DNA of 64,000 nucleotides. Source: Bacteroides ndongoniae (GTDB lineage Bacteria; Bacteroidota; Bacteroidia; Bacteroidales; Bacteroidaceae). Below, one piece after another: positions 23,461-46,410 of this stretch. The notes beneath the pieces were generated by a model. That model made no database searches. It was not told where the DNA came from and saw nothing but the letters and a program-made list of their open reading frames with translations. The first letter of the stretch is position 1, and every line of letters starts with the position of its first letter. Position numbers and translations under genes: made by a program. Location of the stretch: positions 656,944-720,943 of the forward strand of contig NZ_FNVV01000013.1 of the NCBI RefSeq assembly GCF_900108345.1. The letters run 5' to 3'.

Positions 23461-23660
23461 GTTTGTTTTTCTTTCCCTCTGCTCGGCTTCCTTGTTACCG
23501 GAGCCGCTTCGGGTTTTATGGTGCTTTCCGGGGCTGGCGAAAAAGCCCTTTCCGACGTTTTTTCTTGCCAATTACGCTTCGCAGAAGGAAGAATTTGCAA
23601 GAAATGCAATTCAAAACGACGGAATCAGGCGCGACAGCCCATATTTGCACCGATAAAAAC
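23461..23660 (-). promoter_or_regulatory. Repeated leader element, copy A
   Basis: Copy of the dispersed leader family, upstream of 23444. It carries the purine-rich (minus strand) tract near the start codon and the conserved hairpin TTTCTTGC (23561-23568) / GCAAGAAA (23597-23604) with apical CTTC/GAAG. An outward (+ strand) TATTTGCA-type box lies near 23642. No TAnnTTTG toward the gene. Confidence 0.85.
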
Positions 23661-23780
23661 CGATGCGGTGACGGACAGGAAAGCCAGACGGAAGAGAATA
23701 CGGAAACCTGAAAGCAATAGAAAAGGACGACTGGAAGCTAAAAAAGAGAAATTATATATCTATATATGGATAATTGTTCG

Positions 23781-23788
23781 TATATTTG
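23781..23788 (+). promoter_or_regulatory. Bacteroidota -7 box of the hipBA-like operon
   Basis: TATATTTG, perfect TAnnTTTG, 26 bases before the antitoxin ATG, within an AT-rich stretch of short TATA repeats that could serve as operators for the XRE-type antitoxin. Confidence 0.6.
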
Positions 23789-23814
23789 TATATAAATAGT
23801 GATATATTGATATT

Positions 23815-25480: not shown

Positions 25481-25488
25481 TGTCATTG

Positions 25489-25965
25489 TCATTCCGCCCC
25501 TTTCTTGCTTAGGAGGGTCAACTGGTCGGGACGGTCGGGAAACCAATAGGCGTCGCTGTCAAGATACACGCATCTGCCACCGTTCCAAGGCTTCCTGAAA
25601 GCCAACACCTCTTTGGGGCCGAATACTACTCCATAATCGTTTGTAAATGCTACCATGTCGCCTACGGCCAAATCGTCCTCCGTTTCCATGACTTCGGAAA
25701 GGCGATTGTAAAACTCCATGCCTTCGGCTTCACGTTCCGCTTTCCAGCGCAAAAAATCCTCTTTGTGACTTCTGCCCGTGCTTATCGGCAATAATTCCGA
25801 AGGCAAAACCTCCGCTTCCGAAGTACCGGATGAAATCAGAATAATGCTGTCGTCTTCCATGTTTTCCGGTGCAGAAATCACTCGGTAAGCCCCGTCGGAC
25901 AAACCGTTGTCCGGGTCATGCCAGTAAAGCAGATTCCCGGTCTTGATAAAATCGTATTTTCCCAT
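25489..25965 (-). CDS. Conserved accessory protein of unknown function
   Basis: 158 residues, soluble and acidic. Recognisable stretches are DFIKTGNLLYWHDPDNGLSDG, an SH3-like or OB-like beta pattern (DLAVGDMVAFTNDYGVVFGPKEVLAF) and WFPDRPDQLTLL. Only gene behind leader B. No function assigned. Confidence 0.65.
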   Translation of the reverse strand: MGKYDFIKTGNLLYWHDPDNGLSDGAYRVISAPENMEDDSIILISSGTSEAEVLPSELLPISTGRSHKEDFLRWKAEREAEGMEFYNRLSEVMETEDDLAVGDMVAFTNDYGVVFGPKEVLAFRKPWNGGRCVYLDSDAYWFPDRPDQLTLLSKKGAE

Positions 25966-25984: not shown

Positions 25985-26190
25985 TATTTATTTCCCTTTT
26001 TTCGATCCCTTTCCTTCGGAACCGCTTCGGGGTTTTACTGATGCAGTACACGGTCATCGGTACAGCTTCATACGACGGCTCTTCTTGCCAATTACGCTTC
26101 GCTTGGGAAGGAAGAATTTGCAAGAAGTGCACTTCAAGCCGGCGAATCAAGCGCGATGTTCGACTTTCGCATCGGATAAAACCCGTGCGG
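25985..26190 (-). promoter_or_regulatory. Repeated leader element, copy B
   Basis: Upstream of 25965. Stem TTCTTGC (26082-26088) / GCAAGAA (26120-26126), the same arms as copies A and D but with a longer apical loop. Outward box degraded to GACTTTCGCATC near 26163. The tail to 26330 holds repeated TATAAAAGG-like motifs. Confidence 0.82.
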
Positions 26191-26344
26191 TGAGGGACGG
26201 GAAAGCCGGACGGGAGAAACAGGCGGCTCGTGCCGCTATAAAAGGGAAAGAATGCAGTTATAAGAGGAAACGGGTGGTGGGGGGGGGTATTTGGGAGGCT
26301 GACTATAAAAGGACGAAAACGGGCGATAAAGACAAAGGAGATAG

Positions 26345-26428: not shown

Positions 26429-26944
26429 TCAAAAACATTCTTCTCCGAATGGCTCGATGTTCGCTTTTTGAAAAATTTGCGGGTTATGCTGATAAAGAAG
26501 CGGCAGGTTCAACATAGCCATAGGGTATTCCACGAAGCCGCTCCTGCGCTTATACTCGGAATCGGTTGCCAGTCCGTTTTTCACCAAGAACTCCATTGCT
26601 TCGGGGTAATGATTGACGTCGATAAATGTACGGTCCGGCAGACCGAGTGCGTCCATTTCCTCCAAATTAACGGAAAGCACGATATATTCGTCTTCATCTT
26701 CCACCATTACCAAGGTGAGAGCTAACCAACCATTGCGGTAAAACTCTGGTACGAGGTAATACTGTTCGCCTCTGAACTCGTATTCTTTCTGCCTGAAAGA
26801 ACTGTCCGGCTCTACGATTTCAAATTCATCTTCGCCTGTGGCAAAGGCTATCATAGGGTTACTGGCATCTACATACGCTTCACCTGCTTTGTAACACAAA
26901 TACTCTTTGTTTTCCGAACGAACGATTGTAAATTGAATTTCCAT
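26429..26944 (-). CDS. DUF4313-like accessory protein
   Basis: 171 residues. The second half (GWLALTLVMVEDEDEYIVLS, VNLEEMDALGLPDRTFIDVN, EFLVKNGLATDSEY) follows the pattern of DUF4313-type proteins of mobile elements and phages. The first half (about 1-75) is an additional domain. Function unknown. An anti-defence or DNA-transfer role is only suggested by context. Confidence 0.6.
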   Translation of the reverse strand: MEIQFTIVRSENKEYLCYKAGEAYVDASNPMIAFATGEDEFEIVEPDSSFRQKEYEFRGEQYYLVPEFYRNGWLALTLVMVEDEDEYIVLSVNLEEMDALGLPDRTFIDVNHYPEAMEFLVKNGLATDSEYKRRSGFVEYPMAMLNLPLLYQHNPQIFQKANIEPFGEECF

Positions 26945-26986: not shown

Positions 26987-27215
26987 TTTCCCTTCTTTCG
27001 GAAGCCTTCAGGCTTCTCCCGTCGGGATTTGATTTTTACGTGCATCAAAGATTGCCTTTCAGGGAGAAACAGGCAAGGAATTTGGACAGAATTTTATAGT
27101 TGCGGTATTGAGCGTCCGCGAAATATGGACGATTGAAAATCGGGAAAGCTGCTGAAAAATTGTGTTCAAATAGCGTAGCGGTACTTGAATGTTCCTCCAA
27201 GGCAATACCTTTGCA
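26987..27215 (-). promoter_or_regulatory. Probable distant relative of the leader family, upstream of 26944
   Basis: It keeps the TTTCCCTTCTTTCGG tract (26987-27001), a hairpin TTGCCT (27052-27057)/AGGCAA (27071-27076), and an outward TACCTTTGCA box at 27206-27215 with TTG 18 bases upstream. The central sequence is otherwise unlike copies A-E. Confidence 0.45.
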
Positions 27216-27326
27216 CCGGAAAAAGCATGTCCCGACGGGCAGAGCCGTCGGCGAAGGGATTTCCATACAAAAGGAAAACGAAGGGGTAAAAAGGGAGATC
27301 TGCCGGTGGCAGGTGCTAAAAAAGAC

Positions 27327-27474: not shown

Positions 27475-29220
27475 TCAAGCTGCCGTTTCTTCAGGCTGTG
27501 GCAGTGCTTCGGGTTGCGCTTCTGCCGTGACTTGTGTTTCTTCGGTCTCGGCGGCTTCTGTCTGCTTCTCCTGCTGTTCCTTTACCAACAGCACGGCTTT
27601 GCGTTCCTCGATACGTTTATGGCGTTTCTCATACACCTCATTGTATTCACTTTCAATTCCGGCGAGCGTGTCGGGCATGTGCTTACGGGCAAAATCGAGC
27701 AAGAGGGTGGCGGCAGCGTTACTACCGTATGCGCCTTTGAAGCTCTCTATCAAGAAATCCCTACGGATAACGGCTTTCTGCTTGGCTGTGAGGTTGGCGA
27801 TGATGTCCATCTTTTCTTCGTCCGTAAGATGTTGATAGACTTCTTTCTCTTCGATACCGAATATCTCGAAGTGTTCCTTGCGGAGAGACGACAGCAGGAA
27901 GAAATATATCATCTTTTCTTCGTCCTGCGTGAATTTGCTTTCGGACATATCGACATCCAAAATCTGTTTCTTGGTATCTTCTACCGTTTTCTCACGGGCT
28001 ATTTCCTTGTTACGCTCGTCCTGCTTCTCCAGTTTCTCCATCGGGGAGAGCGTTTTTTCGGTTGCTTCGTTTGCATTGACGGTGGCACTTGCCTTATAGC
28101 GCAGTGTAATTTCTTTCTGCCCGATGCAGATATAAAACGTAAGTTCGCCCGTGTCGATTCGTTCATGGATTGACCTGCATTTTTCCATATAGTTGCTGAA
28201 ATCCTGCTCGTACTCCTTGTATGCCTGTTCGTATTCCTCGATAGTGTCGTATTCTTCCTTTTCGGGAGCTACGGGCGTTTCGGGGTATGCCGTGGCATAG
28301 GTATTTAAATGCTCAACCTCGTACCCCATAGCGGTAAGGCGTTCCACTGCAACCACATTATTGTTGAAATCTTGGTAGCCCAACGATACGGAGGGGTATT
28401 GTTCCACAAACTGCAAGGCTTTCTCCACGAGATAGGAGGCGTTCATTTCGGCCAGACAACTCCGGTTGGCGCAATTTCCGCAACCACCCTCGCAGAACAA
28501 CATCATGTTGTTGGTATTGTGGGGGCATGAGGCGCACAGGGTCTTATCGAATGCGTAACGGCTAAGGTCTGTCGTGAAATCCTGTTCGATAAACTTTGCT
28601 ACCTCGGCGGCTTTCAGTCCTCGCCAACTGTTGTAAGAATCGGCTTTCAAATGCTTGTCGTACACCTCTTTCTGAATATCCGTACCGTACCGGCAAATTT
28701 CGCTCGCCACGCTGATTGTGATTTCGTCCTTTTCCAGAAGTTCGGCTATTTCGGGTATCAGTGAGACGAATTTCAAACGGGTACGGATATAGTTCTCGTT
28801 CTTGCCGAACTGCACGGCCAACGACTGCACATCATAGCGACCACTCTCTATAAGTTTTTGGTAAGCGTTGGCTTCTTCTATGGGGGTAACGTCCTTGCGT
28901 TGCAGGTTCTCCGTTACGGCCATTTCGGCGGCGGTCTCGTCCGAAACGTTCAGCAAGATAGCCGAAATTTCTTCCAATCCTGCCAAAAGGGAAGCACGAT
29001 ACCTGCGTTCTCCGAAAACAATCTCAAACTTTCCGCTTTCATCAATGGGGCGCACTCCGATAGGTTGCAATACTCCCTGCTGACGAATGCTCTCGGCCAG
29101 TTCGGCAAGGCTCACCTCGTCAAAGTACTTGCGTGGGTTATAACTGCTCGGCTGAATGTTTGCCAGTGCTACCGATACGATGTTTTTCTCTGCTACAGAT
29201 TGAATGTTTGCTGTTTCCAT
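27475..29220 (-). CDS. Large ParB/RepB-family DNA-binding protein
   Basis: 581 residues. The N-terminal ParB domain is clear (IQPSSYNPRKYFDEVSLAEL; GERRYRASLLAG near residues 71-82), followed by a helix-turn-helix region (KNENYIRTRLKF). Residues about 230-265 hold a cysteine cluster (CASCPHN ... CEGGCGNCANRSC) that could bind metal. The C-terminal half is charged and ends in a glutamate-rich tail. It is much longer than chromosomal ParB. It forms one module with the 87-residue gene behind leader C, not with parA. It may act in partition, maintenance or transfer-region regulation. Confidence 0.88.
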   Translation of the reverse strand: METANIQSVAEKNIVSVALANIQPSSYNPRKYFDEVSLAELAESIRQQGVLQPIGVRPIDESGKFEIVFGERRYRASLLAGLEEISAILLNVSDETAAEMAVTENLQRKDVTPIEEANAYQKLIESGRYDVQSLAVQFGKNENYIRTRLKFVSLIPEIAELLEKDEITISVASEICRYGTDIQKEVYDKHLKADSYNSWRGLKAAEVAKFIEQDFTTDLSRYAFDKTLCASCPHNTNNMMLFCEGGCGNCANRSCLAEMNASYLVEKALQFVEQYPSVSLGYQDFNNNVVAVERLTAMGYEVEHLNTYATAYPETPVAPEKEEYDTIEEYEQAYKEYEQDFSNYMEKCRSIHERIDTGELTFYICIGQKEITLRYKASATVNANEATEKTLSPMEKLEKQDERNKEIAREKTVEDTKKQILDVDMSESKFTQDEEKMIYFFLLSSLRKEHFEIFGIEEKEVYQHLTDEEKMDIIANLTAKQKAVIRRDFLIESFKGAYGSNAAATLLLDFARKHMPDTLAGIESEYNEVYEKRHKRIEERKAVLLVKEQQEKQTEAAETEETQVTAEAQPEALPQPEETAA

Positions 29221-29259: not shown

Positions 29260-29523
29260 TTAATTAATGCCGTTTTTATCGGTGTCATACTCGTACATCT
29301 GCGGATTGTCGTACCCCTCGAACGATAGCCGGAACGTGTCGAAGTCTTTCCTGCTTGCCAGTCTGACGGTATCGTTTTTCCCGATGAAATAGGGTTCGAG
29401 CATTGTCCGAGACGGTGCGCCAAGCGTTACCCTGTCTGCCAACGTGCAAACTTTGTCGGGTTGTTCGGGCATGATATAACCCAGTGCGTACTCGTTGTAA
29501 ACTACCAATTTGATTTTATCCAT
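29260..29523 (-). CDS. Small protein of unknown function, first gene behind leader C
   Basis: 87 residues from the ATG at 29523 (MDKIKLVVYNEYALGYIMPE). The longer open frame upstream runs through the leader. Soluble, with a beta-rich start and RKDFDTFRLSFEGYDNPQMYEYD. Its stop is about 40 bases before the ParB-family gene, so the two are probably co-transcribed. Confidence 0.62.
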   Translation of the reverse strand: MDKIKLVVYNEYALGYIMPEQPDKVCTLADRVTLGAPSRTMLEPYFIGKNDTVRLASRKDFDTFRLSFEGYDNPQMYEYDTDKNGIN

Positions 29524-29544: not shown

Positions 29545-29740
29545 TTTTTTTCTTTCCCTCTTTTCGGTTCCTTTCTCTGCCTGAACCGCTTGAGGTTTTA
29601 CGGATGCGGTACACGGCTGTCGGTACAGCTTCATACGACGGCTTTTCCTGCCAATTACTCTTTCGCAGAAAGGAAGAATTTGCAGGAAATGCACTTCAAG
29701 CCGCCGTATCAAGCGCGACAGCAGACCTTTGCATCTGATA
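29545..29740 (-). promoter_or_regulatory. Repeated leader element, copy C
   Basis: Upstream of 29523. Stem TTTCCTGC (29644-29651) / GCAGGAAA (29682-29689): relative to copy A, one T-A pair has become C-G on both sides. Apical stem CTTTC/GAAAG instead of CTTC/GAAG. Outward GACCTTTGCAT at 29724-29734. Confidence 0.88.
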
Positions 29741-29780
29741 AAACACAACGGTGACGGCAGAGAATGAGACCGGGAAAGCG

Positions 29781-29936
29781 GTAAAGGAATCGGTAGAAAA
29801 GGAATATGCCTGTTAGGGTTAGAAAGGGAATAAAACGGGCAGCATGCCTGCGCTTGCAGGCAGGTAAAAAAGAATAGGCGGTAAGACTATAAAGGAGGAA
29901 TGCGCCCTATGGAAACAGCGGGCGGGTAGAAAAGGA
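29781..29936. repeat. Degenerate short-motif array between leader C and the next terminator
   Basis: Six related motifs of the form GTAnAAAAGGAAT lie near 29781, 29793, 29819, 29863, 29887 and 29926. Similar TATAAAAGG-like motifs follow leaders A, B, D, E, F and G. Minus strand reads as repeated pyrimidine tracts. Confidence 0.5.
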
Positions 29937-31002: not shown

Positions 31003-31026
31003 AACATATTGCCTTTAAATTCAATA

Positions 31027-31034
31027 CAAAGATA
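31027..31034 (-). promoter_or_regulatory. Bacteroidota -7 box of parA
   Basis: Minus strand reads TATCTTTG. The spaced -33 position (19 bases upstream) reads TTAG and lies inside the TACTAAATTTAGTA palindrome, so binding there would block the promoter. Confidence 0.75.
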
Positions 31035-31035
31035 A

Positions 31036-31138
31036 TACTATTTTTAGTAATTACTAAATTTAGTATATACTAATTTACTACAATATATCATTTTAGTATA
31101 TTAGTATTATAGTATTTACTATTATACTAAATATAGTA
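31036..31138. repeat. Cluster of TACTAAA/TTTAGTA sites upstream of parA (candidate parS/operator)
   Basis: Many direct and inverted copies of TACTA/TAGTA, including the perfect 14-bp palindrome TACTAAATTTAGTA at 31052-31065. Fits a centromere and autoregulatory operator bound by the ribbon-helix-helix partner. A second cluster lies at 38058-38140. Confidence 0.7.
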
Positions 31139-31376: not shown

Positions 31377-33131
31377 TTACCAATACTCGATGGTTCGTTT
31401 CTCTGTATATTCTTCTGGAGCAGTATATTCATCGCCGACATAGTTCCCATTGTCATCATACTTATCGTATTCGGTGGTGTAGCTTACCTTCCGCTCTATC
31501 CAATTCTTGTGCTTGTCGAACTTGGTATAGGTATAGCGATAAGTGGTGTTACCTTCTTCCGGGTGCTCCTGTATCATCGTGGCCGGGTATTTGCTGTCAC
31601 CTTCATAGCTGTATTTCCAAGTGACGTATGCCATGTGCGAAGTAAACTGATGACTGATGATACGATTGCGCTTATCAAACATATAGGTCTGGTCAAGTTC
31701 CGTGTTGGTATCAGCATCTGGACAAATATCCGTCCGCATACCATCTTTTGATTCGATGTTCACCACATAATCTCCCCATCCCTCCACTTTATAGGAAGTA
31801 GCTGTGGCATATTGATAGGCCGCTTCGTCTCCGAACTTGTTCTGCATGGCAATCAGATTGCCCGCCTGGTCAAATTTGAGTGATTCCTCATTGCCGTTTA
31901 CCGACTTGACTTTACCGGACAACCCATAAATATCCGTTCCTTTGTAGCGTAAACTACCCATTAGGGCAGGTTGACCGTTTTCTTTTGCAGCTTTCATGGA
32001 AGCAATCGTTTCATCGTCCCAGTAATCAATGCTGCGGACAACTGTCAGGCTGGGAGCCTCACCCGCTTTGACAGCAGAAGAACGATCCCGATTCGATGTA
32101 AATCCGTCTCTGAAAGCCTTATAGTAGGTACGCAATGCAGGTATCTCATCGATGTTAGCCGGGAATGTAACGGTAGCTTGTGTCCAGTTTCCTTTTTCAT
32201 CATATACATAATCGTAGGAGACGGTAAACGTCATGTCATCCACCCGCCAGTTGTTGCCTTTACTTTTATATACACCTCCGCTATACGTCCAAGTAGCCAA
32301 GTCTCCGTGTGAGTTATACGCAAAGCTGCTGGTACAAGTCAGTGTTTCGTTCCCCCCGTCAAATTCAACGGGAATCTTCTCTACGGCTTGTGTGCACAGA
32401 TGGCCTGTATAGACATAGGTTGTCACCGATTGTCCTGTCTTGTAACTGTCGATGTCTTTCAAGAACATGTTCGTGGTCTTCGGTGTTTCAAAAGACTTCA
32501 AGTGAGCGAGCGAGTCAAACTGCATCTCATGAAGCGTCACGCCCGATTCATTGACCGTGCCATTCTTTTTTTCGGGCAGGATGGATTGCAATACCCCATT
32601 ACCGTGATAGGCATACAGAAAAGTGGTTGTGTCATAATGTCCCCGCCCGTTCTTGTCGCGACGTATCAACCGACCTGCACTGTCGTATGTGAAGCCGTCA
32701 TCTTTTTTCCGGCGTTTGTAACGTCCGTCATCTACCGATTTGATTTGGGTCAGATTGGAATTGCCGTTATATTCATACGAAATGACATCAAATCCGGTTG
32801 CACCCACATTGAAAGAAGTGCGCCGCTGTTCGGACAAACGGCCGTTAGGCAAGAACTCGTATTGCGAGGTGCTTGTCACACCCCATTGTGCATTGTGGTA
32901 TTCGTAGGTGACCAGCTTCGGATAGTTGCGCAATCCCATCTTTGCCCAATCCGTAGGATAGTTTACGAAATAAGGCATCAGATGTTCCGCATTCATATCC
33001 ACTCTTACCGGATCAAAATACACCTGAAGCGGTGTATAAGGCTGGTTGCTTTCTTCACTGCCACAGCTTGCTGCTCCTATCGACAGCAAGCAAGAAAGAC
33101 CGACAGCTTGTATGGTCTGTAATGCTTTCAT
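31377..33131 (-). CDS. Lipoprotein with YD/RHS-like repeats
   Basis: 584 residues. Lipobox around ASC (about residue 23, SIGAASCGSEES). The body has recurring YxYDxxGN-type units (YEYNGNSNL, YVYDEKGNWTQ, FTYDSAGRLIRRDKNG, FDKHKNWIERK), typical of RHS/YD-repeat surface proteins. There is no toxin-like C-terminus. Last gene of the AT-richer cargo operon 37573-31377. Surface location is inferred from the lipobox. Confidence 0.78.
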   Translation of the reverse strand: MKALQTIQAVGLSCLLSIGAASCGSEESNQPYTPLQVYFDPVRVDMNAEHLMPYFVNYPTDWAKMGLRNYPKLVTYEYHNAQWGVTSTSQYEFLPNGRLSEQRRTSFNVGATGFDVISYEYNGNSNLTQIKSVDDGRYKRRKKDDGFTYDSAGRLIRRDKNGRGHYDTTTFLYAYHGNGVLQSILPEKKNGTVNESGVTLHEMQFDSLAHLKSFETPKTTNMFLKDIDSYKTGQSVTTYVYTGHLCTQAVEKIPVEFDGGNETLTCTSSFAYNSHGDLATWTYSGGVYKSKGNNWRVDDMTFTVSYDYVYDEKGNWTQATVTFPANIDEIPALRTYYKAFRDGFTSNRDRSSAVKAGEAPSLTVVRSIDYWDDETIASMKAAKENGQPALMGSLRYKGTDIYGLSGKVKSVNGNEESLKFDQAGNLIAMQNKFGDEAAYQYATATSYKVEGWGDYVVNIESKDGMRTDICPDADTNTELDQTYMFDKRNRIISHQFTSHMAYVTWKYSYEGDSKYPATMIQEHPEEGNTTYRYTYTKFDKHKNWIERKVSYTTEYDKYDDNGNYVGDEYTAPEEYTEKRTIEYW

Positions 33132-33137
33132 GTTCCG

Positions 33138-34442
33138 TTATTTTTGATTTGTTGGATGATTTTCCTTGCAGGGGACCTGCTTGGTGACAGGATGATAAGA
33201 GATATTCCAGACGGGATAAGCTCCGACCTTATCTACACAGCACGAATACAGATAACAGTTCCCGTGTATCGAACTTTCCGAACCCAGCAATCCGGAGATG
33301 TATTTGCATCCTTTTCCCGACACAATGATTTTGCCTTCATTCACCACCTGATGGAAAGAGGAACCTCCGAAACTGCCGATTACTCCTCCGATGGCGGAAA
33401 ATTCAGCCAGCAGGTCATGCTTGATTTCGATGTTGCCTGCATTGTACAGATCCAACGGATAGATTCGTTCGTAGTTGTGAGGTGTCAGTTCGCCACATAC
33501 CCCTCCGATATTAAATGTAGCAGATGTATTCTGTGTGTCCAAGCGGATGTTTCCCCAATTATGGAGATGCTCTATATCAGTTTCATTGGTTTTGAAAAGT
33601 CCGACAACACCACCGATGTAGCTATGATCAGGTTGGGCATCGGCCTTCCACTGCACGGTCAAATCGCCTTTATTCTCGACGCAGACATTCTCTTTGATAA
33701 AGATTTTACCATAATTGGTGGCCCTCCCGATGACTCCACCTATGTAGGCATCACTGCACGGATTAACGGTGAGGTTGCCCTCATTGATTACCTTGCCACG
33801 CAAAGCCACTTCCACTTCGGAGCCGTAGCTATCCAGGTCTCCGACAAGTCCACCCAGACAGAGTGTACAGATACCCTTATTGTCAGCGAATGAGATATCC
33901 ACCTTGCTGGTACAATTCTTGATACACCCATTCTTGAACTTTCCCGCCAGAGAACCGGCAAGCAGGCTATAACCGTCTTCTCTCTTTTGAGCGTCGATGG
34001 TCATGTCACCTGCCAATGTCAGATCCTTGACCACAGCTTCTTTTTCACCACCCATTTCTTCAAACAGACCGACATCAAATACTCCTTTGGAACTCTCTTC
34101 AATGACCACCCGTATTCCGTCGAAGGTAATGGTATGTCCGTTGCCGTCGAACTCCCTAACCGGGAATTTAATCGGTGTCCATTCACCGCTGATTTCGATG
34201 TCCTTCACCAGTTTAATCCGCACTTCATCTGCTGGAATCTCCCTGCCTGCATCGGTGAGCAGCGTTTGTGCTTCCATGTTTTTATCCTTGATTTCGAACG
34301 TTTCGTTCAGGAAACGCAGTTCACTCTCTTTTCCGATTTCAAATACCTGTTCCGCCTCGTTGAAATGCAAGGCGGTGACTTTCTCTTCACACGATGTCAG
34401 CCAAAAAGGCAGGCAAGCGACAAGGTAAACCATTCTTTTCAT
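33138..34442 (-). CDS. Surface lipoprotein with GLUG-like beta-helix repeats
   Basis: 434 residues from the ATG at 34442 (MKRMVYLVACLPFWLTSCEE), chosen because it gives a clean lipobox (LTSC). The middle and end contain repeated [IL]GG[VL][VIC]G motifs (LGGLVGDL, IGGVIGRA, IGGVVGLF, IGGVCGEL, IGGVIGSF), the GLUG-type pattern of bacterial adhesin-like beta helices. Start and next gene are 6 bases apart from neighbours, so it is part of the cargo operon. Confidence 0.78.
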   Translation of the reverse strand: MKRMVYLVACLPFWLTSCEEKVTALHFNEAEQVFEIGKESELRFLNETFEIKDKNMEAQTLLTDAGREIPADEVRIKLVKDIEISGEWTPIKFPVREFDGNGHTITFDGIRVVIEESSKGVFDVGLFEEMGGEKEAVVKDLTLAGDMTIDAQKREDGYSLLAGSLAGKFKNGCIKNCTSKVDISFADNKGICTLCLGGLVGDLDSYGSEVEVALRGKVINEGNLTVNPCSDAYIGGVIGRATNYGKIFIKENVCVENKGDLTVQWKADAQPDHSYIGGVVGLFKTNETDIEHLHNWGNIRLDTQNTSATFNIGGVCGELTPHNYERIYPLDLYNAGNIEIKHDLLAEFSAIGGVIGSFGGSSFHQVVNEGKIIVSGKGCKYISGLLGSESSIHGNCYLYSCCVDKVGAYPVWNISYHPVTKQVPCKENHPTNQK

Positions 34443-34455
34443 GATGCTGCTCTTT

Positions 34456-35352: not shown

Positions 35353-35378
35353 TATGCTGTTGCTTTATATGGTTAAAA

Positions 35379-36239: not shown

Positions 36240-36269
36240 ACGTATATCGTTTTATAGTTTTTAGATTCA

Positions 36270-36698
36270 TCAGAGTTTAAACGTGATAGGCAGAGTGTAT
36301 TCCACATTTACCGGTTTGCCATCCTGTGTACCGGGAATCCAACGAGGCATGGACTTCACTACGCGGACAGCTTCCTTATCCAAATAAGGATCTACAGACT
36401 TGGTAACACGAATATTTGAGATAGAGCCATCGCTCTTGACTGTAAATTTCACCAACACTTTGCCTTGTATTTTCTGTTCCTTGCAAACTGTCGGATACTT
36501 TAGATTCTTTGATAAAAATTGTACCAATGCGGTGATACCACCGGGAAATTCCGGAGACACCTCTCTCTTGTTCTGGGAAACTTTTGCCATCGAAGGCAAA
36601 TCATTGATAGTTCTTGCCTCATTTGCAGCCTGTGTATCCAAACAATTGCCAATCAGCAGTGCGGATAGTAAACTGCTCAAAATAATTTGTTTTTTCAT
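36270..36698 (-). CDS. Short exported TonB C-terminal-domain protein
   Basis: 142 residues. Signal peptide (about 1-25, ending TQAA), then a single TonB C-terminal domain (EFPGGITALVQFLSKNLKYP, GKVLVKFTVKSDGSISNIRV, PRWIPGTQDGKPV). It is a paralogue of the C-terminal part of the 35379 protein, 30 bases away, so the pair arose by duplication. Confidence 0.8.
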   Translation of the reverse strand: MKKQIILSSLLSALLIGNCLDTQAANEARTINDLPSMAKVSQNKREVSPEFPGGITALVQFLSKNLKYPTVCKEQKIQGKVLVKFTVKSDGSISNIRVTKSVDPYLDKEAVRVVKSMPRWIPGTQDGKPVNVEYTLPITFKL

Positions 36699-36739
36699 AC
36701 AGTTTTATTGTTTAATTATCAATACGTTACATTATTCAT

Positions 36740-37573
36740 TTATTTGCGATAAAATCCGGAACTGTCGCGTCCCCATTTGCCGCCAAATTGGTCGGTATAA
36801 TCACACTCGCTATAGGGAGAATCTTGTGTAAGATGATATAATGTTCCAGAATCAGTAAAACTTGCTGTTTTCAAACCACTTGAACTGCTTGATGATGAAC
36901 CGCTCCAAGACTCCGTCGCTCCCTTATGCAAGTCTTTAAAACCGAGAATACCCATAATAAGACCTATCCCGTTGCCTATACTGAATCCCCATTGGGCCAT
37001 ATCCCACATGGTACCAGAGTCTATCCAACCCAGCCAATCAAGAATAAAACCTACTGCCAATCCAATCGCTCCAACAATCAAACCTACAACCAGCATCAAT
37101 GCGAAGAATTGTAACACAATCTTGATAATGTAGATGGCTATGCCTAAAAACAGTATCCACTTTATCGCTGTGAACCAAGCCGATTCTCCTTCGGAATCAA
37201 ACAACCAAGAGGTTAAGTCCCATGACTCTTCTTTGGTGGAAGTACCCGCTTCGTCTGTTTCTGTTACGGCTTCCAGATACGATGCGCTGACATAACCCTG
37301 CCAGCCATTATAATTGATATTAGCCCATCCGTTTTCTATAGATACAACATCAATCACGTTATCCTTAGACAATTGTCCTAATAGTTTTCCGTTTTTATTG
37401 GCTGAAGCTCGTACATTAAGACCGTTGGGAGCGGTCACTCGATAATGATCTGCAAAAGATTGCGTACATAGGGAAAAATTAAGGATTAGAAACAAAACCC
37501 ATTTAACAATGTTTCTGCTAACGAACATATTCTTCAGCATACAAATACTTTGCTGGCTATATCTGTTCATCAT
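36740..37573 (-). CDS. Membrane protein with an N-terminal SH3 domain, first gene of the cargo operon
   Basis: Up to 277 residues; starts at 37541 or 37529 would give a more usual signal sequence (MFVSRNIVKWVLFLILNFSL). After the signal there is a bacterial SH3 domain (about 44-102: YRVTAPNGLNVRASANKNG, GWQGYVSASYLEAV), then three or four membrane helices (about 130-210) and a serine-rich cytoplasmic or surface tail. The structured leader at 37581-37770 lies immediately upstream. Confidence 0.68.
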   Translation of the reverse strand: MMNRYSQQSICMLKNMFVSRNIVKWVLFLILNFSLCTQSFADHYRVTAPNGLNVRASANKNGKLLGQLSKDNVIDVVSIENGWANINYNGWQGYVSASYLEAVTETDEAGTSTKEESWDLTSWLFDSEGESAWFTAIKWILFLGIAIYIIKIVLQFFALMLVVGLIVGAIGLAVGFILDWLGWIDSGTMWDMAQWGFSIGNGIGLIMGILGFKDLHKGATESWSGSSSSSSSGLKTASFTDSGTLYHLTQDSPYSECDYTDQFGGKWGRDSSGFYRK

Positions 37574-38057: not shown

Positions 38058-38140
38058 TATAGTATCTACTAATTTTAACAAGAATAGGTTTACTAATTTC
38101 CTATTTTACTATGATTAGTAAATACTATATTTAGTATCTG
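38058..38140. repeat. Second cluster of TACTAA/TTAGTA sites, upstream end of the cargo block
   Basis: Repeated ATAGTATCTACTAA, TTTACTAA, GATTAGTAAATACTA and TTTAGTATCTG motifs resemble the parA-proximal cluster at 31036-31138. Together they bracket the cargo operon. Confidence 0.65.
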
Positions 38141-38166
38141 CTTATTTTCAGATAGTTGTTATCTTA

Positions 38167-38580
38167 TCAGAAGGGCAAATCCTCCTTTTCGTCCTGCGGG
38201 AAATCGGCGGGAGGAACGGGTGCGCTGTCTGCACCGTTTACATCGTTGTCCGCTCCGGCTGCCGCACCCTCGCGTTTTCCGGTATTGATAAAGGCAATGC
38301 TTTCTGCCGTGATGGAGAGCTGTATTTGGCTCTCGCCATTCTTGTCTTTCCACAGGGAAGATGACAGCGTACCGTCAACGAGTATGAGTCTTCCTTTCGT
38401 CAGATATTCGGACAAATGGATATGGTTGTCCTTGTTGCTACGTACCCTTATCCAAGTGGTAGTGTTTTGTCCTCTTGAATAATCGTCAACGGCTATGTCC
38501 ATAGCCATGAATGAGCCGTGTACTCCTGAAATAACCTGGCAATCTTTGCCGATGCGTCCGATAGTGTGAACATGTAACAT
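38167..38580 (-). CDS. ssb: Single-stranded DNA-binding protein
   Basis: 137 residues. N-terminal OB fold (VHTIGRIGKDCQVISG, MDIAVDDYSRGQNTTTWIRV, GRLILVDGTLSSSLWKDKNG) and a proline/alanine linker ending in the acidic tip DEKEDLPF, the partner-binding tail of bacterial SSBs. It is plasmid/ICE-encoded and behind leader D. Leading-region SSBs protect incoming single-stranded DNA and help evade SOS. Confidence 0.93.
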   Translation of the reverse strand: MLHVHTIGRIGKDCQVISGVHGSFMAMDIAVDDYSRGQNTTTWIRVRSNKDNHIHLSEYLTKGRLILVDGTLSSSLWKDKNGESQIQLSITAESIAFINTGKREGAAAGADNDVNGADSAPVPPADFPQDEKEDLPF

Positions 38581-38634: not shown

Positions 38635-38820
38635 TTTTTTCCCTTCTTTCGGTTCCTTTCTCTGCCTGAACCGTTCCGGGATTTTATAGATGCGGTACAT
38701 GGCTGCCGGTAGAGCTTTATGCGACGGCTTTTCTTGCCAATTACTCTTCGTAGAAGGAAGAATTTGCAAGAAATGCACTTCAAGCCGCCGGATCAAGCGC
38801 GGCAGCCGACCTTTGCATCT
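38635..38820 (-). promoter_or_regulatory. Repeated leader element, copy D (upstream of ssb)
   Basis: Stem TTTCTTGC (38730-38737) / GCAAGAAA (38766-38773), apical CTTC/GAAG around GTA. A second pair GCCGC/GCGGC follows the hairpin. Outward GACCTTTGCAT at 38808-38818. No TAnnTTTG toward ssb in the leader or in the tail to 38950. Confidence 0.88.
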
Positions 38821-38966
38821 GAAAAACCGGACGGCGATGGCAGAGAGGAGACCGTAGAGGTTATATCTATAACTGATATAAAGGGAAGAGGGCTTCGCCA
38901 AAGTATAAGAGCAGAGGGAAAGAGAGAGGTATAAAAGGAAGCCGCCAACGGAGTTGCGGTATTTAT

Positions 38967-39047: not shown

Positions 39048-39494
39048 TCAAAGAGAGGAAGGCAGCAAATCCCCCATCCTCTGTTCCGGCATAGTGCAAA
39101 ATCCCCGAACGATAGTAGCTCCGTTTACACCCTCAAGTCTGGCGAACATTTGCAACGCGTCAAATCCACAGTCGAACTGTTCCATGCTGACAGCGGGGGC
39201 AAAATGAACAATACCGTGGGGATAGCTCTTCGAGACACCTATCCACCCACGCAAATAATCATCGAAGCGTCCTTCTGCTTTTGAGGCGTAGAACTCTTGC
39301 GAATGGGAGCTGCAAATACTTTTGCCGTACATTTCATCTCCTAAAATCAAAGTGCCTGTTTGCGGGTTATACATAAAACGCCGATTGGTTATCTGAAGAA
39401 TATCTATGATTTCCCGTTTGACGTCGATAACCATCAGGATTTTTTCAACCTGCCGTTTTGTGCGTTTGCCTGTTTTACAGTTTTTCTTGTCCAT
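39048..39494 (-). CDS. Accessory protein of unknown function
   Basis: 148 residues; an internal start at residue 21 (MVIDVKREIIDILQ) is possible. Basic N-terminus, then mixed alpha/beta: NPQTGTLILGDEMYGKSICS, FDDYLRGWIGVSKSYPHGIV. Only gene of the module behind leader E. No family recognised. Confidence 0.6.
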   Translation of the reverse strand: MDKKNCKTGKRTKRQVEKILMVIDVKREIIDILQITNRRFMYNPQTGTLILGDEMYGKSICSSHSQEFYASKAEGRFDDYLRGWIGVSKSYPHGIVHFAPAVSMEQFDCGFDALQMFARLEGVNGATIVRGFCTMPEQRMGDLLPSSL

Positions 39495-39524: not shown

Positions 39525-39710
39525 TTACCCTTTTTTCGGTTCTTTTCTCTGCTTGAACCGTTCCGGGATTTTACAGATGCGGTACACGACTGCCGGCAGG
39601 GCTTCATACAGCGGTTTTCCCGGCCAATTACTCTTTCGCAGAAAGGAAGAATTTGCAGGGAATGCACTTCAAGCCGCCGGATCAAGCGCGGCAGCCGACC
39701 TTTGCAGTTG
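39525..39710 (-). promoter_or_regulatory. Repeated leader element, copy E
   Basis: Stem TTCCCGGC (39617-39624) / GCAGGGAA (39655-39662): carries the C-G change seen in copy C plus a second compensating T-A to C-G change, with one mismatch. Apical CTTTC/GAAAG as in copy C. Outward GACCTTTGCA at 39697-39706. Confidence 0.85.
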
Positions 39711-40240
39711 GAAAATCGGACGGCAACGGCAGAGAAGAGACGGGAACGGTCCGGAAAGTATGACGGTAAAAGGGGGTACGGCCTTGCCGGATATAAATGC
39801 AGGAGAAAATGAAGTAGAAAAGAGTGCGGCTTGGGCGGGTCAGGCAATGGTCTGCCGGGGCAAACATGAAAGGGATTCTCCTTATCCGTCCCACGCCTGA
39901 ATTTCGACCGAGCGGAATGAAAGCGCGGGGCGGATAAGAAGTATCGCCGTTTGCCCTTGACGTGGCAGGTCACAAGGGAAAGATACGGAACAGAGGCGGA
40001 AAGTCCGAAACCAGCGGCATAAAGACCGGTCGGGCTGTGGAATACCGTGTTGTTTCGACAGGTCGAAGCTCCGGCATGGAACGGCACGATCCGGGCTGCC
40101 GCCGGTTTTGAACGGGCCTCCCGTACCTTTCCCTGACGACTTGTTACGGCACAGACTTTCCACTGGTTCACGGGTTGGGAAAGCCGGTATATAATGGGGA
40201 AACAGCCTGAAGGTAAAAAAGGAGGAAGCCTCGTTTTGAA
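39711..40240. other. GC-rich stretch of about 500 bp with no convincing gene
   Basis: Open frames here are antisense-like or run through leader E and show no protein character. A few TAnAAAAGG motifs lie near 39766, 39790, 39810, 40190 and 40215. I see no RNA gene or repeat that explains the rest. Confidence 0.5.
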
Positions 40241-40308: not shown

Positions 40309-40707
40309 TTATTCGTCTTCGTAGTATGGTATGCCATGCCTTACCACTGTCTTTTCCATTTCTTCCCACCAGACTTCACTATGGCGGTCGTCGTCAAAAT
40401 CTATGGATTCATTGTCACCGAGCCGCAGCCTGTCGCGTGTCTCCATTTCCGTTTCAAACACGATCTGTTCCATCTGTTCGTCCGTAACATGACAGGTGTC
40501 GAATGGTTCCGGCAAGGATTCCAGTTCCCGGCGGGAGAGTTCGGATTTGCCGCAAACGAAAACCTTGTCGTAGAAAGCGTCCTCTTTCGGCGGCAGTTCG
40601 GGGTCTTGTTCCGGCAGCATGTCCGGACAATCTGAATCGTACAGGTGGTTCTCGCCGCGTTCCTGCGTCTGCCGGTTGTTTTCAAGCTCATACATTGTAA
40701 GTTTCAT
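40309..40707 (-). CDS. Acidic accessory protein of unknown function
   Basis: 132 residues, strongly acidic throughout (EQDPELPPKEDAFYDK, NESIDFDDDRHSEVWWEEME). Highly acidic small proteins in mobile-element accessory regions are sometimes DNA mimics (for example ArdA-type), but there is no sequence match I recognise. Only gene of its module, behind divergent leader F. Confidence 0.6.
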   Translation of the reverse strand: MKLTMYELENNRQTQERGENHLYDSDCPDMLPEQDPELPPKEDAFYDKVFVCGKSELSRRELESLPEPFDTCHVTDEQMEQIVFETEMETRDRLRLGDNESIDFDDDRHSEVWWEEMEKTVVRHGIPYYEDE

Positions 40708-40802: not shown

Positions 40803-40995
40803 TATTTCCCTCGGTTCGAACGATTACAGGGAGGGAAGTCCGATGCTTTTTTCTGCCTCGTCTTTGCATCATAGGATTTGCGGCAAGGATTCCATGAAAA
40901 ATACGCTTGGAATGAAATGAGAAGGAAGATTTTTCATCAGGAAAATCGAAGATGGGCCTTGCGGCAAAGTTTTGAGATGCAATCAACTTTGCGGG
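40803..40995 (-). promoter_or_regulatory. Repeated leader element, divergent copy F
   Basis: Upstream of 40707. Stem sequence replaced but pairing kept: ATGAAAAAT (40894-40902) / ATTTTTCAT (40929-40937). Apical ACGCTT and GAGAAGGAAGA are shared with copies A-E. Outward CAACTTTGCGG near 40984. Confidence 0.72.
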
Positions 40996-41163
40996 AAAAA
41001 AGTGTCGGGCTTTGCGGTCGTCGGTCCGTGATGGTAACTCAATCTACAAGAGGTGGAAGCAGAAGTCTGCTTATAAAAAGGAGTATGATATAAAAGGAGT
41101 CATCGGAGGTACAAGGGGCAGATTCCGCTACAACCGGGTATGGCCGTCGGCAGACCGTAAGGT

Positions 41164-41231: not shown

Positions 41232-44200
41232 TCAGGCCGCTTTGTCGCCGGCCTCGTGTCCGGAAAGGACTGGCTGCGTGCGTTCCGCCTCTTTCATGCT
41301 TTCGTCAATCCGGTGCTGTAAAGCGTTGCACTCCTGTTTGAGCCTTGCCAACTCGTCCGCCTTGCTCCACTTACGGGCTATGATTGTCTCTAAGGTAGGT
41401 ATCTCGCTCTCCAGCTTGGCTATCTTCTGCCGTTGTTCCTCAATCATGCCGGGCAGCTTTTCAAGGGCGGCTTGCGGGTATCGGGAGGATTCCACGAAGC
41501 CCAGAGGCAATGCTCCCGATATGCCGCAACGGTATTTCAGCCCGCTTACACCCTCGACGAGGAACGTGTTGCGGTAGAATGTACCGCCCTTGTCATATTC
41601 ACTGTACACCGACAGGTTCAATCCGGCATACGTGCCTATCGTGCTGATTGCCCCGTTGCGGTAGGTTTTGGAAATGCGGTGCAGTTCCCGTCCGGTCTCT
41701 TCCGCCGTAGCTTGTGCGAGGTTCAACAACCGGGTCGTCCGGTCTCCGGTGTAAGAGGTGATATACTCCCAGTCCTGTGTCATGCGTTCTGCCGCACTCT
41801 CGGCCTTTATCATATCTTCCTGATTGGCGGCTATCTTGCGTTCGGCCCTGATGCGGTCTTTCTTGAAAATGGCCTGTTCCTTTTCGAGCTGCATAATCTT
41901 GTTGTCGAGTTTTGTTTTCTCCAACAGGTCGGTATTTCCCGACAAGAGAGCCACGAACTCGGCGAAGTTCATGCCGTTGTCCTCGTCCATAGCGTCCTCG
42001 TCGATACGGCGCACGGCAATCGTGCCGTTGTTGATTTGGTTAATGAACATCTGCTTGTTCTTCAACAGGTTAAACTTGTAAGCGTCGAGTGTCTTTTCAG
42101 TGCCATAAATCACCACGTCCACAGTGTTGTTTCCCCAGAGCTTGACGGTGTTGCCCTTGCGTACCGCCCTGCCGTTGCGCTGTTCCATGTCAGCGGGGCG
42201 CCAAGGTATCTCCAGATGATGCACCGCCACGGCCCTTTCCTGTGCGTTCACTCCCGTTCCCAACATCGAGGTAGAGCCGAACAACACCCGTACCCTGCCA
42301 CTGTTCATGTCCGCAAAGAGTTTCTTTCTCGCCCGTTCGGTCTTGGCGCACTGGATAAACTGGATTTCATCGGCAGGAATCCCCATAGCCACCAGTTTGT
42401 CCTTGATGTCGCTGTAGATGTTCCACTCGTTCGGCTTGTAGGTGGAAAGGTCGCTGAAGACGAACTGTGTACCCCGGTTGGCGGTCGAACGCACGTAGTA
42501 GTCGTAGATTGTCCGTGCGCAGATAGAAGCCTTGTTGTTCCCGTCGTCGCCGAACTTGTCGCCCAACAAGCGCATATCGAGGGACATCTTGCGTGCCACG
42601 TTGGTAGCGACAAGCATTTTTGCCTTGTCGAGATTGTCCGGTTGCGGAATATCCAACCCCAAATCTTCCCATTGTCCGCTGTGTGCAAAGGCGACGAGCC
42701 GCCCGATCATTTCCTCTTGTTGGATAGTGGGCGCACTGGAAAGGAAACGCACGTTTTTGTCCGGCACGTCGAGGTTTATCATGTCGGCGGTACGATAGTC
42801 GGTAATCTCCCGCAGGAACATCGCCAGTTCCGGCACTTTGATATAAGTACGGAAACGCTCTTTGCGCTTTATCGTACCCGTTACGTTCAGCTCGTAATCA
42901 GCGGTCTTTTTCGTGAAGATAGCCGCCCAAGCGTCGAAACAGCTTACTTGTTGCCGTTTGAGTTCCCTCGGACGCAGGTATTTGAACATCACGTACAGTT
43001 CGGTCAGCGCATTTACGACCACCGTACCGGAAAGGAACGTAGCCCCCAAGTCCTTTCCCGTGCGGCGTTGAATGTCCCGAATGGCAAACAAAAGGTTCAT
43101 CGCCCTTTGCGAGCCTTGTGCGTTGCCGATACCCGCTACTCTCGTGTGGCGTGTCTGGAACATCAGATTTTTATAGCAGTGGCATTCGTCCACAAATATG
43201 TGGTCTATGCCCATCAAGCGGAAATCGACGGTATCGTCTTTCCGGCGGTCTATCTTCATCTGCAGTTCGGCGAGCTTGGCTTTAAGGTTCTGTTTCCGGG
43301 TTTCCAGTCCTTTCTGCATTCTGCCGCTCCGGTAGCGCATGGTGGACTGTTCCAACACTTCGAGGCTGCGCTCCACGTCGGCCAGTTCTTCCGAGAATAT
43401 GTCGTACATGGTTTCTTCGGACTGCGGAATCTTGCTGAACTGGTCGTGTGTCAAGATAATACAATCCCAGTTATTGTTCTTGATCTTTGAAAATACCTCT
43501 TTGCGGTTGGCAGGGGTGAAATCTTCCTTGCCCGGATAGAGCACCTTGGCTGCGGGATATGCCTTGCGGAACGTGTCGGCAATCTCGTGCACGTTGGCTT
43601 TCAGTCCGATAATGAGAGGCTTCTGAACCATTCCGAGACGTTTCAACTCATAAGCGGCCACGCACATAATCATCGTCTTGCCCGTGCCGACCTCGTGCCA
43701 ACAGATACCGCCGCCGTTCTGCTTTATCATCCAAATGGCGTCCTTTTGCGACGGATAGAGGCTGTCGTAGGAGAACTGCTCGAAAGAGAGGCCGGGGAAT
43801 GTCTGCGCCGAGCCGTCGTAGTGCGGACGCACGTAACAGTTGAAACGCTCGTTGTATGTCCTTACCAGTTCGTCCCGGACTTCCAAAGGCTCGTTGTCGA
43901 GCCACTGGTTGAAACGTTCTCTGATTTCCTGTATCTTGGCGGCGGCTTCCTGTATGGCTTCCTCGTCCGGTACTCGTACCTTGCTGCCATCCCGGTATTC
44001 CTCTCTCGTTATTTCGGGAACGGTATCGTGCAGGGCGTGTACAAACAAGTCCTCGCCGTTGTAGCTGCGCACGGAATAGGTATTGTATGCCACAGGCGAA
44101 TATCCCTGCAGCCGAATCAAGTAAGTGTCGTTCACGTCGAAATACATCACGTTCGCACCCACTCCGAAGAGTTCGGAAGCAAAATCGGCGTACAGTTTCG

Positions 44201-46208
44201 TATCTATCCACCGCTCGCCCATGTTGATGTCGAGTTCTTCATAGGGTATCGGTTCGGGTATGGCGTTCTCCAGTGCCTTTGCAGACGCTTCGACCCATTC
44301 TTTCTCCTTTCCGGTGAGGTCAGGGAGAAATGAAAGTGTCTCTTGCTGCTTGGCTATGACATTTCCGGCAAGGAACTTCCCTTTGTGCTCCCATTCTCCG
44401 GCTGCCGGATTGTAGAAGATTTCCCCTTGCAGGGCTTCGATGATTTCTTCTTCGTCCTTGCCTGTGGCTTGTGCCATGTAGTCCATATCGACCTTGCCGT
44501 AAAAGTTCAGACTGCTTGCCAGAGCTTCTATTGGTGTGAGCGTTTCCGTGTCGTTTATCTTTTTGAAAGCAACGGGTTCACGCATGATGTCGGCTTTGAA
44601 GATGTCCCTGCCGACCTGCATTTCTATCGTGAACACCTCCGTACCGAGACTGTCGAGCATGATAAACTCCTTGTTGTCGTTATCGTGGAAGAATCCCCAT
44701 TTGGCAACAAAGGCGTCATATAGGGCATTGAGTTGTTTACGGAACTCCGGGTACTCCTTTTGTTCTTCCCGTTCCCTGCCGGACAGCTCGAAATACGCCT
44801 TGCGTATGGGGAAATAGTCGGCGGCCCTGTCCGTGTTTACCTTGCCATCGTCCACCGGCACGAAATCGACGGCTGTCTCCGTGTAACGGCTCGACTTGCG
44901 GAACCGGAGCGTACCTACCTGCCCCTCGAAAACGACCATTGCGCCGTTCTTCATCCATGTTTCCATGTCCTCTGTGTAGGCACGTATGCCTTTGGCTGTC
45001 TGCGGCTCGCCGAAAAGAGACATCTGTACGGGGGCGTTGTCTTGGCCGTGACCGCCGAAAAGAGCCTTGCGAAAATAGCGGTCGAAATCGTATTTGAGCA
45101 GTGCGGAAAGGTATTGGGACATGGCGTTTTCATCGCCAAACCACTGGTATTTGCGAACGTACTTTCCGAACTGGTTCAGCGCAATGCGACTGTCCGTGGC
45201 AAGGGCGGTCTTGGGGAGGGTAAAGATTTTATTCGCATAGTCGGTCATTGTTCCTGCCGTGTCGGCCTTTTCCTTGGAGACCTGCAAAAACATCTTCTCC
45301 CGTAACGAGAGGGTCGCCTTGCGGCTGTGTTTCTGGAATATCAAGAGGTCGCTCCCTACCTCTATGCCACTTGTCTGCATGAAAAGGGTATCGGGCAGCC
45401 GTAGGGCCGTTATGAGGTCGGCATGGTTGACGAGGTACTCGCGCACGAACTTGTTGCCCGGTGTGTCGGCAATTCCTCTCGGCGCAACGAACGCCAGTAG
45501 GCCGCCCTCGTTCAACAGCTCCATTGCCTTGACAAAAAAGTAGTTGTGTATGGTCTTGGCTGACTGTTCGTACATGCCGCCTTTCTTCCACATTTCCGCA
45601 TCGAATACCCGGAAATTGCCGAACGGGATATTCGAGGCGATAACATCGAAGCTCCCATGCTCCAGATGCTGGTCGGCTATCGTCTCGAAACCTGCCGTTA
45701 CCGTGGTTGTCTTATCATGCAGAAGCGACAGGATAAGTCCCGTAAGGCAATCTTTTTCAAAGGCGTAACCGCGAGTGTCGGGCATGGCGACGGGCAGAAA
45801 ACCGCCGATTCCCGCACTGGGTTCGAGAAAGGTGCGCATTTGCAGGCCGTTATCCATGAATGTGGCGTGTATCTGCCGGGCTACTGCGTCTATGAGGAAT
45901 TTCGGCGTGTAAAAAGCGGTCAGGACGGAGGATTTTATACTGTCGATGACGGCTTGCCGCATGGCATCGTCATAATAAGGATATGCTTCTATCAGGTCTT
46001 GCAACCTGTGGATATGCTCGGCCACATCATTGCTGACGGTGTGTTCCGTTCCTATGCTCAACACGTCTTTAATACCCCCGAAACCGGAATATCGGGATAA
46101 TACCTCTTTCTCTTGGTCGGTGGCCTGTCGGTCGTCGATACGGATTTTCATTGCCGTTGCAATGGCTTCCACGTTTGCCACCAGTGATTTCAATTTGTTG
46201 TAACTCAT
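41232..46208 (-). CDS. Giant DNA methyltransferase-helicase fusion protein
   Basis: 1658 residues. N-terminal N6-adenine methyltransferase: LEPSAGIGGFLPVA near residue 129 (SAM-binding motif I) and VIASNIPFGNF near 190 (NPPF-like catalytic motif, here NIPF). Then a superfamily-2 helicase: Walker A HEVGTGKTMIM near 839, a DEAH-like box VDECHCYKN near 1005, and motif VI EQRNGRAVRKGN near 1342. A coiled-coil C-terminus (about 1460-1640) follows. Such proteins are a hallmark of Bacteroides conjugative elements and related phage DarB-type proteins, thought to protect incoming DNA from restriction. Single gene behind divergent leader G. Confidence 0.92.
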   Translation of the reverse strand: MSYNKLKSLVANVEAIATAMKIRIDDRQATDQEKEVLSRYSGFGGIKDVLSIGTEHTVSNDVAEHIHRLQDLIEAYPYYDDAMRQAVIDSIKSSVLTAFYTPKFLIDAVARQIHATFMDNGLQMRTFLEPSAGIGGFLPVAMPDTRGYAFEKDCLTGLILSLLHDKTTTVTAGFETIADQHLEHGSFDVIASNIPFGNFRVFDAEMWKKGGMYEQSAKTIHNYFFVKAMELLNEGGLLAFVAPRGIADTPGNKFVREYLVNHADLITALRLPDTLFMQTSGIEVGSDLLIFQKHSRKATLSLREKMFLQVSKEKADTAGTMTDYANKIFTLPKTALATDSRIALNQFGKYVRKYQWFGDENAMSQYLSALLKYDFDRYFRKALFGGHGQDNAPVQMSLFGEPQTAKGIRAYTEDMETWMKNGAMVVFEGQVGTLRFRKSSRYTETAVDFVPVDDGKVNTDRAADYFPIRKAYFELSGREREEQKEYPEFRKQLNALYDAFVAKWGFFHDNDNKEFIMLDSLGTEVFTIEMQVGRDIFKADIMREPVAFKKINDTETLTPIEALASSLNFYGKVDMDYMAQATGKDEEEIIEALQGEIFYNPAAGEWEHKGKFLAGNVIAKQQETLSFLPDLTGKEKEWVEASAKALENAIPEPIPYEELDINMGERWIDTKLYADFASELFGVGANVMYFDVNDTYLIRLQGYSPVAYNTYSVRSYNGEDLFVHALHDTVPEITREEYRDGSKVRVPDEEAIQEAAAKIQEIRERFNQWLDNEPLEVRDELVRTYNERFNCYVRPHYDGSAQTFPGLSFEQFSYDSLYPSQKDAIWMIKQNGGGICWHEVGTGKTMIMCVAAYELKRLGMVQKPLIIGLKANVHEIADTFRKAYPAAKVLYPGKEDFTPANRKEVFSKIKNNNWDCIILTHDQFSKIPQSEETMYDIFSEELADVERSLEVLEQSTMRYRSGRMQKGLETRKQNLKAKLAELQMKIDRRKDDTVDFRLMGIDHIFVDECHCYKNLMFQTRHTRVAGIGNAQGSQRAMNLLFAIRDIQRRTGKDLGATFLSGTVVVNALTELYVMFKYLRPRELKRQQVSCFDAWAAIFTKKTADYELNVTGTIKRKERFRTYIKVPELAMFLREITDYRTADMINLDVPDKNVRFLSSAPTIQQEEMIGRLVAFAHSGQWEDLGLDIPQPDNLDKAKMLVATNVARKMSLDMRLLGDKFGDDGNNKASICARTIYDYYVRSTANRGTQFVFSDLSTYKPNEWNIYSDIKDKLVAMGIPADEIQFIQCAKTERARKKLFADMNSGRVRVLFGSTSMLGTGVNAQERAVAVHHLEIPWRPADMEQRNGRAVRKGNTVKLWGNNTVDVVIYGTEKTLDAYKFNLLKNKQMFINQINNGTIAVRRIDEDAMDEDNGMNFAEFVALLSGNTDLLEKTKLDNKIMQLEKEQAIFKKDRIRAERKIAANQEDMIKAESAAERMTQDWEYITSYTGDRTTRLLNLAQATAEETGRELHRISKTYRNGAISTIGTYAGLNLSVYSEYDKGGTFYRNTFLVEGVSGLKYRCGISGALPLGFVESSRYPQAALEKLPGMIEEQRQKIAKLESEIPTLETIIARKWSKADELARLKQECNALQHRIDESMKEAERTQPVLSGHEAGDKAA

Positions 46209-46212
46209 AATT

Positions 46213-46410
46213 TAACCTTGTTTTTGTTTCCCTCTGTTCGGCCTGTTTGCGACCGCAGGGATTATTTTTCTGCCCTTTGAAGGTGGCAGGGACAATCGAA
46301 CAAGGCTGAAGCGAAAAAATACGCTCGACAACGGAGAGGAAGATTTTTACGCCTCACTCGCGGCGTAGCCGGCATTGGCAGGATTGGAACTGCCGGATAC
46401 CTTTGCGGAA
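46213..46410 (-). promoter_or_regulatory. Repeated leader element, divergent copy G
   Basis: Upstream of 46208. Stem GCGAAAAAAT (46311-46320) / ATTTTTACGC (46343-46352), with the family apical ACGCT and GAGAGGAAGA. Outward perfect TACCTTTG at 46398-46405 with TTGG exactly 19 bases upstream, i.e. a full promoter pointing away from the gene. Confidence 0.72.

Follow-up and report, generated by a model that had tools for sequence, protein, structure and literature searches.

Repeated hairpin leaders of a Bacteroidales conjugative element as probable single-stranded-DNA promoters

What kind of control device could serve many genes that have nothing in common except the DNA in front of them? The question is raised by the window analysed here, i.e. 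the whole 64,000-nt stretch (C2:656944-720943 in a 4.95-Mb genome), in which repeated non-coding leaders precede minus-strand genes whose proteins fall into unrelated families, as the earlier note had remarked; its proposal that many unrelated genes are under one common control element is supported by the present analysis. Promoters working on single-stranded DNA have been demonstrated in enterobacterial (E. coli) plasmids. We consider it probable that the leaders are Frpo/ssi-like single-stranded-DNA promoters of Bacteroidota ICEs, rebuilt on sigma-ABfr boxes. They would belong with Frpo/ssi by their manner of working and not by sequence, transcription from the single strand being a prediction.

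Nine leaders and the element that carries them

The conjugation block of the window is of the Bacteroidetes type (TraG, K, M, N and MobC) and lies on the + strand. It matches the order TraG-K-M-N-TraD given for GA1-type Bacteroidales ICEs in the sections of Coyne 2016 (PMC4714493) considered here, with TraM recognised via Pfam and MobC/T4CP replacing TraD. Besides this tra order, the T6SS cargo borne by relatives of the window element recalls the GA1-type ICEs, whereas its own fimbria-like cargo sets it apart; those same sections of the GA1 paper make no mention of the leaders. The minus-strand genes at 22-47.5 kb of the window are mostly establishment-like (ssb, parB-like, parA, N6-methylase/helicase and small orphans).

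A descriptor combining a TAnnTTTG-like box with two enclosing helices at a DNA energy below -33 kcal/mol found exactly 9 sites in the window, all of them on the + strand, while 11 dinucleotide shuffles of the window gave 8 matches in total with both strands counted, an average of about 0.7. The box pattern AnnTT[TC]G was imposed by the search, so that box conservation is partly built in. Each copy consists of one long imperfect + strand hairpin (about 180-220 nt) and stands immediately before a minus-strand gene, the distance from the box to the ATG of that oppositely encoded gene being 190-277 nt.

Copy A (hairpin core 23490..23676, -7 box CATATTTG at 23640-23647) precedes the gene 23247-23444 (65 aa) with the operon behind it, and copy B (26002..26198, box GACTTTCG at 26162-26169) precedes 25489-25965 (158 aa). 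The box GACCTTTG is common to three copies, namely C (29574..29760, box 29724-29731) before 29260-29523 (87 aa) and then the parB-like gene 27475-29220, D (38658..38844, box 38808-38815) before ssb (38167-38580), and E (39547..39733, box 39697-39704) before 39048-39494 (148 aa). The divergent copies are F (40804..41020, TTG-N22-CAACTTTG, box 40984-40991), before 40309-40707 (132 aa), and G (46248..46434, TTG-N20-TACCTTTG, box 46398-46405), before the N6-methylase/helicase gene 41232-46208 (1658 aa). To these are added copy I (27018..27240, TTG-N18-TACCTTTG, box 27206-27213) before the DUF4313 gene 26429-26944, and copy H (47580..47780, TTG-N19-TACATTCG, box 47750-47757) before the DUF7688 gene 47310-47534.

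The earlier note had listed seven copies, five of them close (A-E) and two divergent (F and G); all seven are real and lie where it had placed them, and the features that it described (purine tract at the start codon, apical hairpin, + strand TTTGC box) are present, but I (box 27206) and H (box 47750) had been overlooked. The hairpin that it set 103-187 bases upstream of the ATG does exist, but proved to be only the apex of one covering almost the whole leader.

The whole ICE holds 16 copies, nine inside the window and seven outside, and six of these seven lie within a minus-strand gene run starting just upstream of the MobV relaxase gene (C2:759286). Two ssb genes, ParB, the N6-methylase/helicase, a DUF1281 protein and many small orphans stand behind hairpins, the link of the leaders to establishment genes (ssb, ParB-family, methylase) being a purely positional one; in the minus-strand block, the operons that lack a leader are that of parA, together with its small neighbour, and that of the fimbria-like cargo. 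AT-rich repeats with a 16-nt periodicity (TACTA..TAGTA) at 31020-31076 and 38091-38147 adjoin parA and ssb and flank the fimbria-like cargo (31377-37573) on both sides; they are possibly an operator or partition site that was doubled at cargo insertion. A 41-nt direct repeat also occurs, with copies 90% identical and 409 nt apart (21731-21771 and 22140-22180).

Fold and promoter boxes of the hairpins

Among 22 sequences of the A-E class, the stem comprises 41 pairs that are 96.3% paired, 18 of them with double changes. The covariation score was matched by none of 500 shuffles on four of five measures, and sliding the partner arm cut pairing by half or worse. The stem is supported by this covariation. 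Most apical loops have AAATAC..GGAAGATTT in common, and TATAAAAGGRAA-like motifs are seen on the + strand past several hairpins (about 26237-26315, 29880-29900, 38868-38945 and 39780-39815 of the window).

The consensus of sigma-ABfr consists of TAnnTTTG at -7 and TTTG near -33 (PMC7366714). The 3' arm of the hairpins bears such a Bacteroides housekeeping promoter, often as TTG-N17-22-TAnnTTTG, reading toward the hairpin base and the gene. The counts were made on 35 non-redundant hairpins, 25 of them outside the A-E class. Of these 25, 22 have a T as the first base of the box, a base that the search had left free, and 21 have a TTG at 17-22 nt spacing upstream of the box, versus 2.7 expected; the A-E class is mostly without a clear -33 box, the TTG being present in 2/10. 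The expected +1 region is 92-100% A/T. No full TAnnTTTG occurs in the mirrored 5' arm. The -7 box has a paired fraction of 0.45, versus 0.79 and 0.81 in its surroundings, and is mostly unpaired in 23/35 hairpins; a universal 7x7 bubble over the box, an impression gained from copies A-H, was rejected because the box is paired in 12/35.

In duplex DNA, the box is directed away from the gene, and the boxes form a complete promoter there too. On the model proposed here, it would be directed at the gene only if the + strand were single and folded, with the 3' arm as non-template and the 5' arm as template.

Strand polarity and distribution

Across 14 elements from nine genomes, 91 of the 95 hairpins lie on the strand opposite to the relaxase gene and four on its strand, counts that are not independent and a ratio that is no probability because elements in different genomes are related. 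An ORF start lies within 130 nt of each of the 91 opposite-strand hairpins, and 310 kb of control DNA gave one match. The core and mobV were on opposite strands in all 10 Bacteroidaceae elements having both on one contig. Three elements carry a PF03432-type relaxase; in one of these, at least two of its three matches, counted among the 91, lie in coding sequence inside tra genes and are probably false. In one of the three PF03432 elements, an ICE at C2:1340000-1419999 (L125-L128), six near-perfect hairpins of the same design precede small orphan genes, and with -49 to -63 kcal/mol these are the most stable found.

The strand predicted to be transferred is the + strand, and here a precedent points the other way: in pMV158, the MOBV1 prototype, the transferred strand is the mobM coding strand (PMC5863519). 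If that polarity were valid here too, the + strand would not be the entering strand; by this analogy, the opposite polarity of pMV158 represents the main risk to the model. The region upstream of mobV was examined for the transferred strand and contains conserved inverted repeats in which no nick sequence was assignable. Most MobV elements conserve this non-coding region (L058:19050-19330), whose inverted repeats around GCCTAATACCCC and GAACAAGCAGCAAGCT covary; it is a candidate oriT.

Outside the family the A-E core is rare, occurring in one of 395 genomes sampled over the phylum, that one being the window's own. When 72,556 plasmids were searched by blastn with copy D, only Bacteroides, Parabacteroides and Phocaeicola gave matches, and no known Frpo/ssi was among them; three other Bacteroidota conjugative plasmids scanned as carriers showed no credible hairpin and then served as controls. 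No Rfam family matched any leader copy. The earlier note had offered no named family for them, though by analogy the Frpo/ssi single-stranded promoters would be a named kind of like working; the sole Rfam family above the cut-off in the window was the DUF805b RNA motif (RF02914) at 22045-22080 on the minus strand. True copies also occur on a contig labelled Acetatifactor (L029, L047), which probably comes from Bacteroidales and was misbinned. NZ_OY725765 and NZ_OY725768, recorded as plasmids, look like fragments of a single ICE that belongs to the same family and bears a T6SS. Group II introns were encountered twice, i.e. a reverse transcriptase gene adjoining an ArdC-like gene (L057:5081-6886) and an interruption of the methylase/helicase gene in NZ_OY725888.

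Competing readings and known single-stranded promoters

The conserved, covarying stem, its constant place before start codons and the purine tract by the ATG would also suit a structured RNA leader, in which the genes are transcribed from the duplex and the hairpin acts in the mRNA through attenuation, protein binding or stability. The earlier note had implied such a transcribed leader, and this part of it is not upheld. A complete sigma-ABfr promoter was detected on the gene strand of only one of the 35 hairpins, versus 16 on the hairpin strand. Neither of the two outcomes that the earlier note had named against its reading was thus seen: the genes have no conventional sigma-ABfr promoter on their own strand, and the copies are not bound to one duplicated gene. 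The most conserved sequence besides the apex is a promoter box of the opposite direction, the TTTGC box being a -7 element that would be of use to the gene solely when the + strand is folded. Wobble pairs on the + strand are 11 G-T versus 4 A-C, the opposite of what a gene-strand RNA predicts. A first tally, made on 40 copies of which some were redundant, had come out even (71:54 and 59:64); the 11:4 count is preferred as the fairer one and is used only against selection at the RNA level, since it does not prove the + strand. Nothing in it suggests that the stem is maintained as a gene-strand RNA. Furthermore, the one-strand bias relative to the relaxase would be needless for an RNA device, and Rfam offered no match. 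The RNA leader was dropped as the main reading on the wobble counts and the scarcity of gene-strand promoters, and we regard it as improbable.

The boxes, being complete promoters in the duplex also, might simply drive + strand transcripts (antisense or small RNA) away from the gene, with the hairpin incidental. This would leave unexplained a 180-220-nt covarying hairpin enclosing the box, the fixed distance between the box and the ATG of an opposite-strand gene, and the absence of other promoters for those genes, and we give it hardly any credence. Alternatively, RNA polymerase or primase could read the fold mainly to prime the second strand, expression being a by-product. Frpo has been described as both promoter and primer site, RNA-polymerase-dependent sso hairpins are known (PMC4595007), and the conserved apical motif could be a protein site. 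Priming, however, needs few copies and no link to ORFs, whereas one element here has 16, each right before a gene start; single-strand initiation sites in this sense are compatible with single-strand promoters, and as the main function they appear very unlikely.

The single-strand promoter reading draws on close functional parallels. Frpo1 and Frpo2 of F (Masai and Arai 1997; Couturier 2023, PMC9849209) are likewise long single-strand hairpins before leading genes such as ssb, in which folding recreates housekeeping promoter boxes; they too occur more than once in an element, and the leading genes run toward oriT. They differ in using sigma-70 -35/-10 boxes instead of sigma-ABfr TTG/TAnnTTTG, in having two copies instead of 16 and in lacking any match by blastn in the 72,556-plasmid search; their early transient expression in recipients was shown by experiment (Couturier 2023, PMC9849209), and single-strand expression from Frpo is thus experimental, whereas the present leaders are known from sequence and folding. 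The leading region of F contains ssb, a ParB-family gene and a DNA methylase, and that of ColIb-P9 contains these plus DUF1281, co-oriented with the relaxase gene. In gene content and layout the window element corresponds to the leading regions of both plasmids. ColIb-P9, with its ssi promoters (Bates 1999; Nasim 2004, cited in PMC9849209), also has a strong hairpin ahead of ssb, located on the template strand, and differs in showing no homology by blastn, in its sigma factor and in being a plasmid, not an ICE. Its relaxase NikB belongs to the PF03432-type family, as in three elements here, and the hairpin strand lies opposite to the relaxase gene in ColIb-P9, as it nearly always does here, the polarity of pMV158 being the opposite. 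The ssoA-type RNA-polymerase-dependent origins of rolling-circle plasmids (PMC4595007) are similar in that host RNA polymerase reads a folded single strand as a promoter, and differ in priming replication, with few copies and no tie to ORF starts.

Repeated putative single-strand promoters before establishment and anti-defence genes were also reported as Frpo-like candidates by Samuel 2024 (PMC11541004). Those were detected either through BLAST with Frpo/ssi sequences already known or through the TTGACA/TATAAT consensus of E. coli, which a sigma-ABfr promoter would escape, and the term Bacteroid- is absent from the main text of that paper; surveys have relied on Frpo sequences or E. coli boxes (PMC11541004; PMC12826799). 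In the open-access literature, we found no published single-strand promoter case in Bacteroidota.

On the single-strand promoter reading, conjugation would deliver one strand, predicted to be the + strand, to the recipient, and each leader on this entering strand would fold into its long hairpin. The 3' arm would then be the non-template side of a promoter in duplex form, with TTG near -33 and a TAnnTTTG at -7 that is often already unpaired, followed by the A-rich stretch where the start is expected. Host RNA polymerase would initiate in the lower stem, leave the hairpin base along the 5' arm as template and enter the gene about 70-110 nt away, so that the settlement genes (two ssb, parB-like, N6-methylase/helicase, DUF1281 and small orphans) could be expressed before a second strand exists. 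Conversion to double-stranded DNA would point the promoters away from their genes and turn them off. We further lean toward a separate evolution of these leaders as phylum-specific single-stranded promoters, with a pre-melted -7 box, an apical motif of their own and up to 16 copies per element that would jointly form an entry programme for the whole element. At least two ICE families of gut Bacteroidales that are unrelated to each other (MobV and PF03432 relaxases) would use it.

If this is true, a mobile element could activate the genes for its establishment as soon as its DNA arrives in a new cell, expression from the incoming strand would extend to another phylum, one whose promoter language is different, and each small orphan behind a hairpin would become a candidate establishment or anti-defence (defence-evasion) gene. 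The model also predicts the transferred strand, and its simple sequence-and-fold rule would show where the early genes lie in conjugative elements from the human gut.

A TGCAYTTCA-like bulge motif, noticed post hoc and excluded from the evidence, is common to F, ColIb-P9 and the A-E class: right after the apical stem, the bulge of the 3' arm reads TGCATTTCA in F, TGCATCTCA in ColIb-P9 and TGCACTTCA in A-E.
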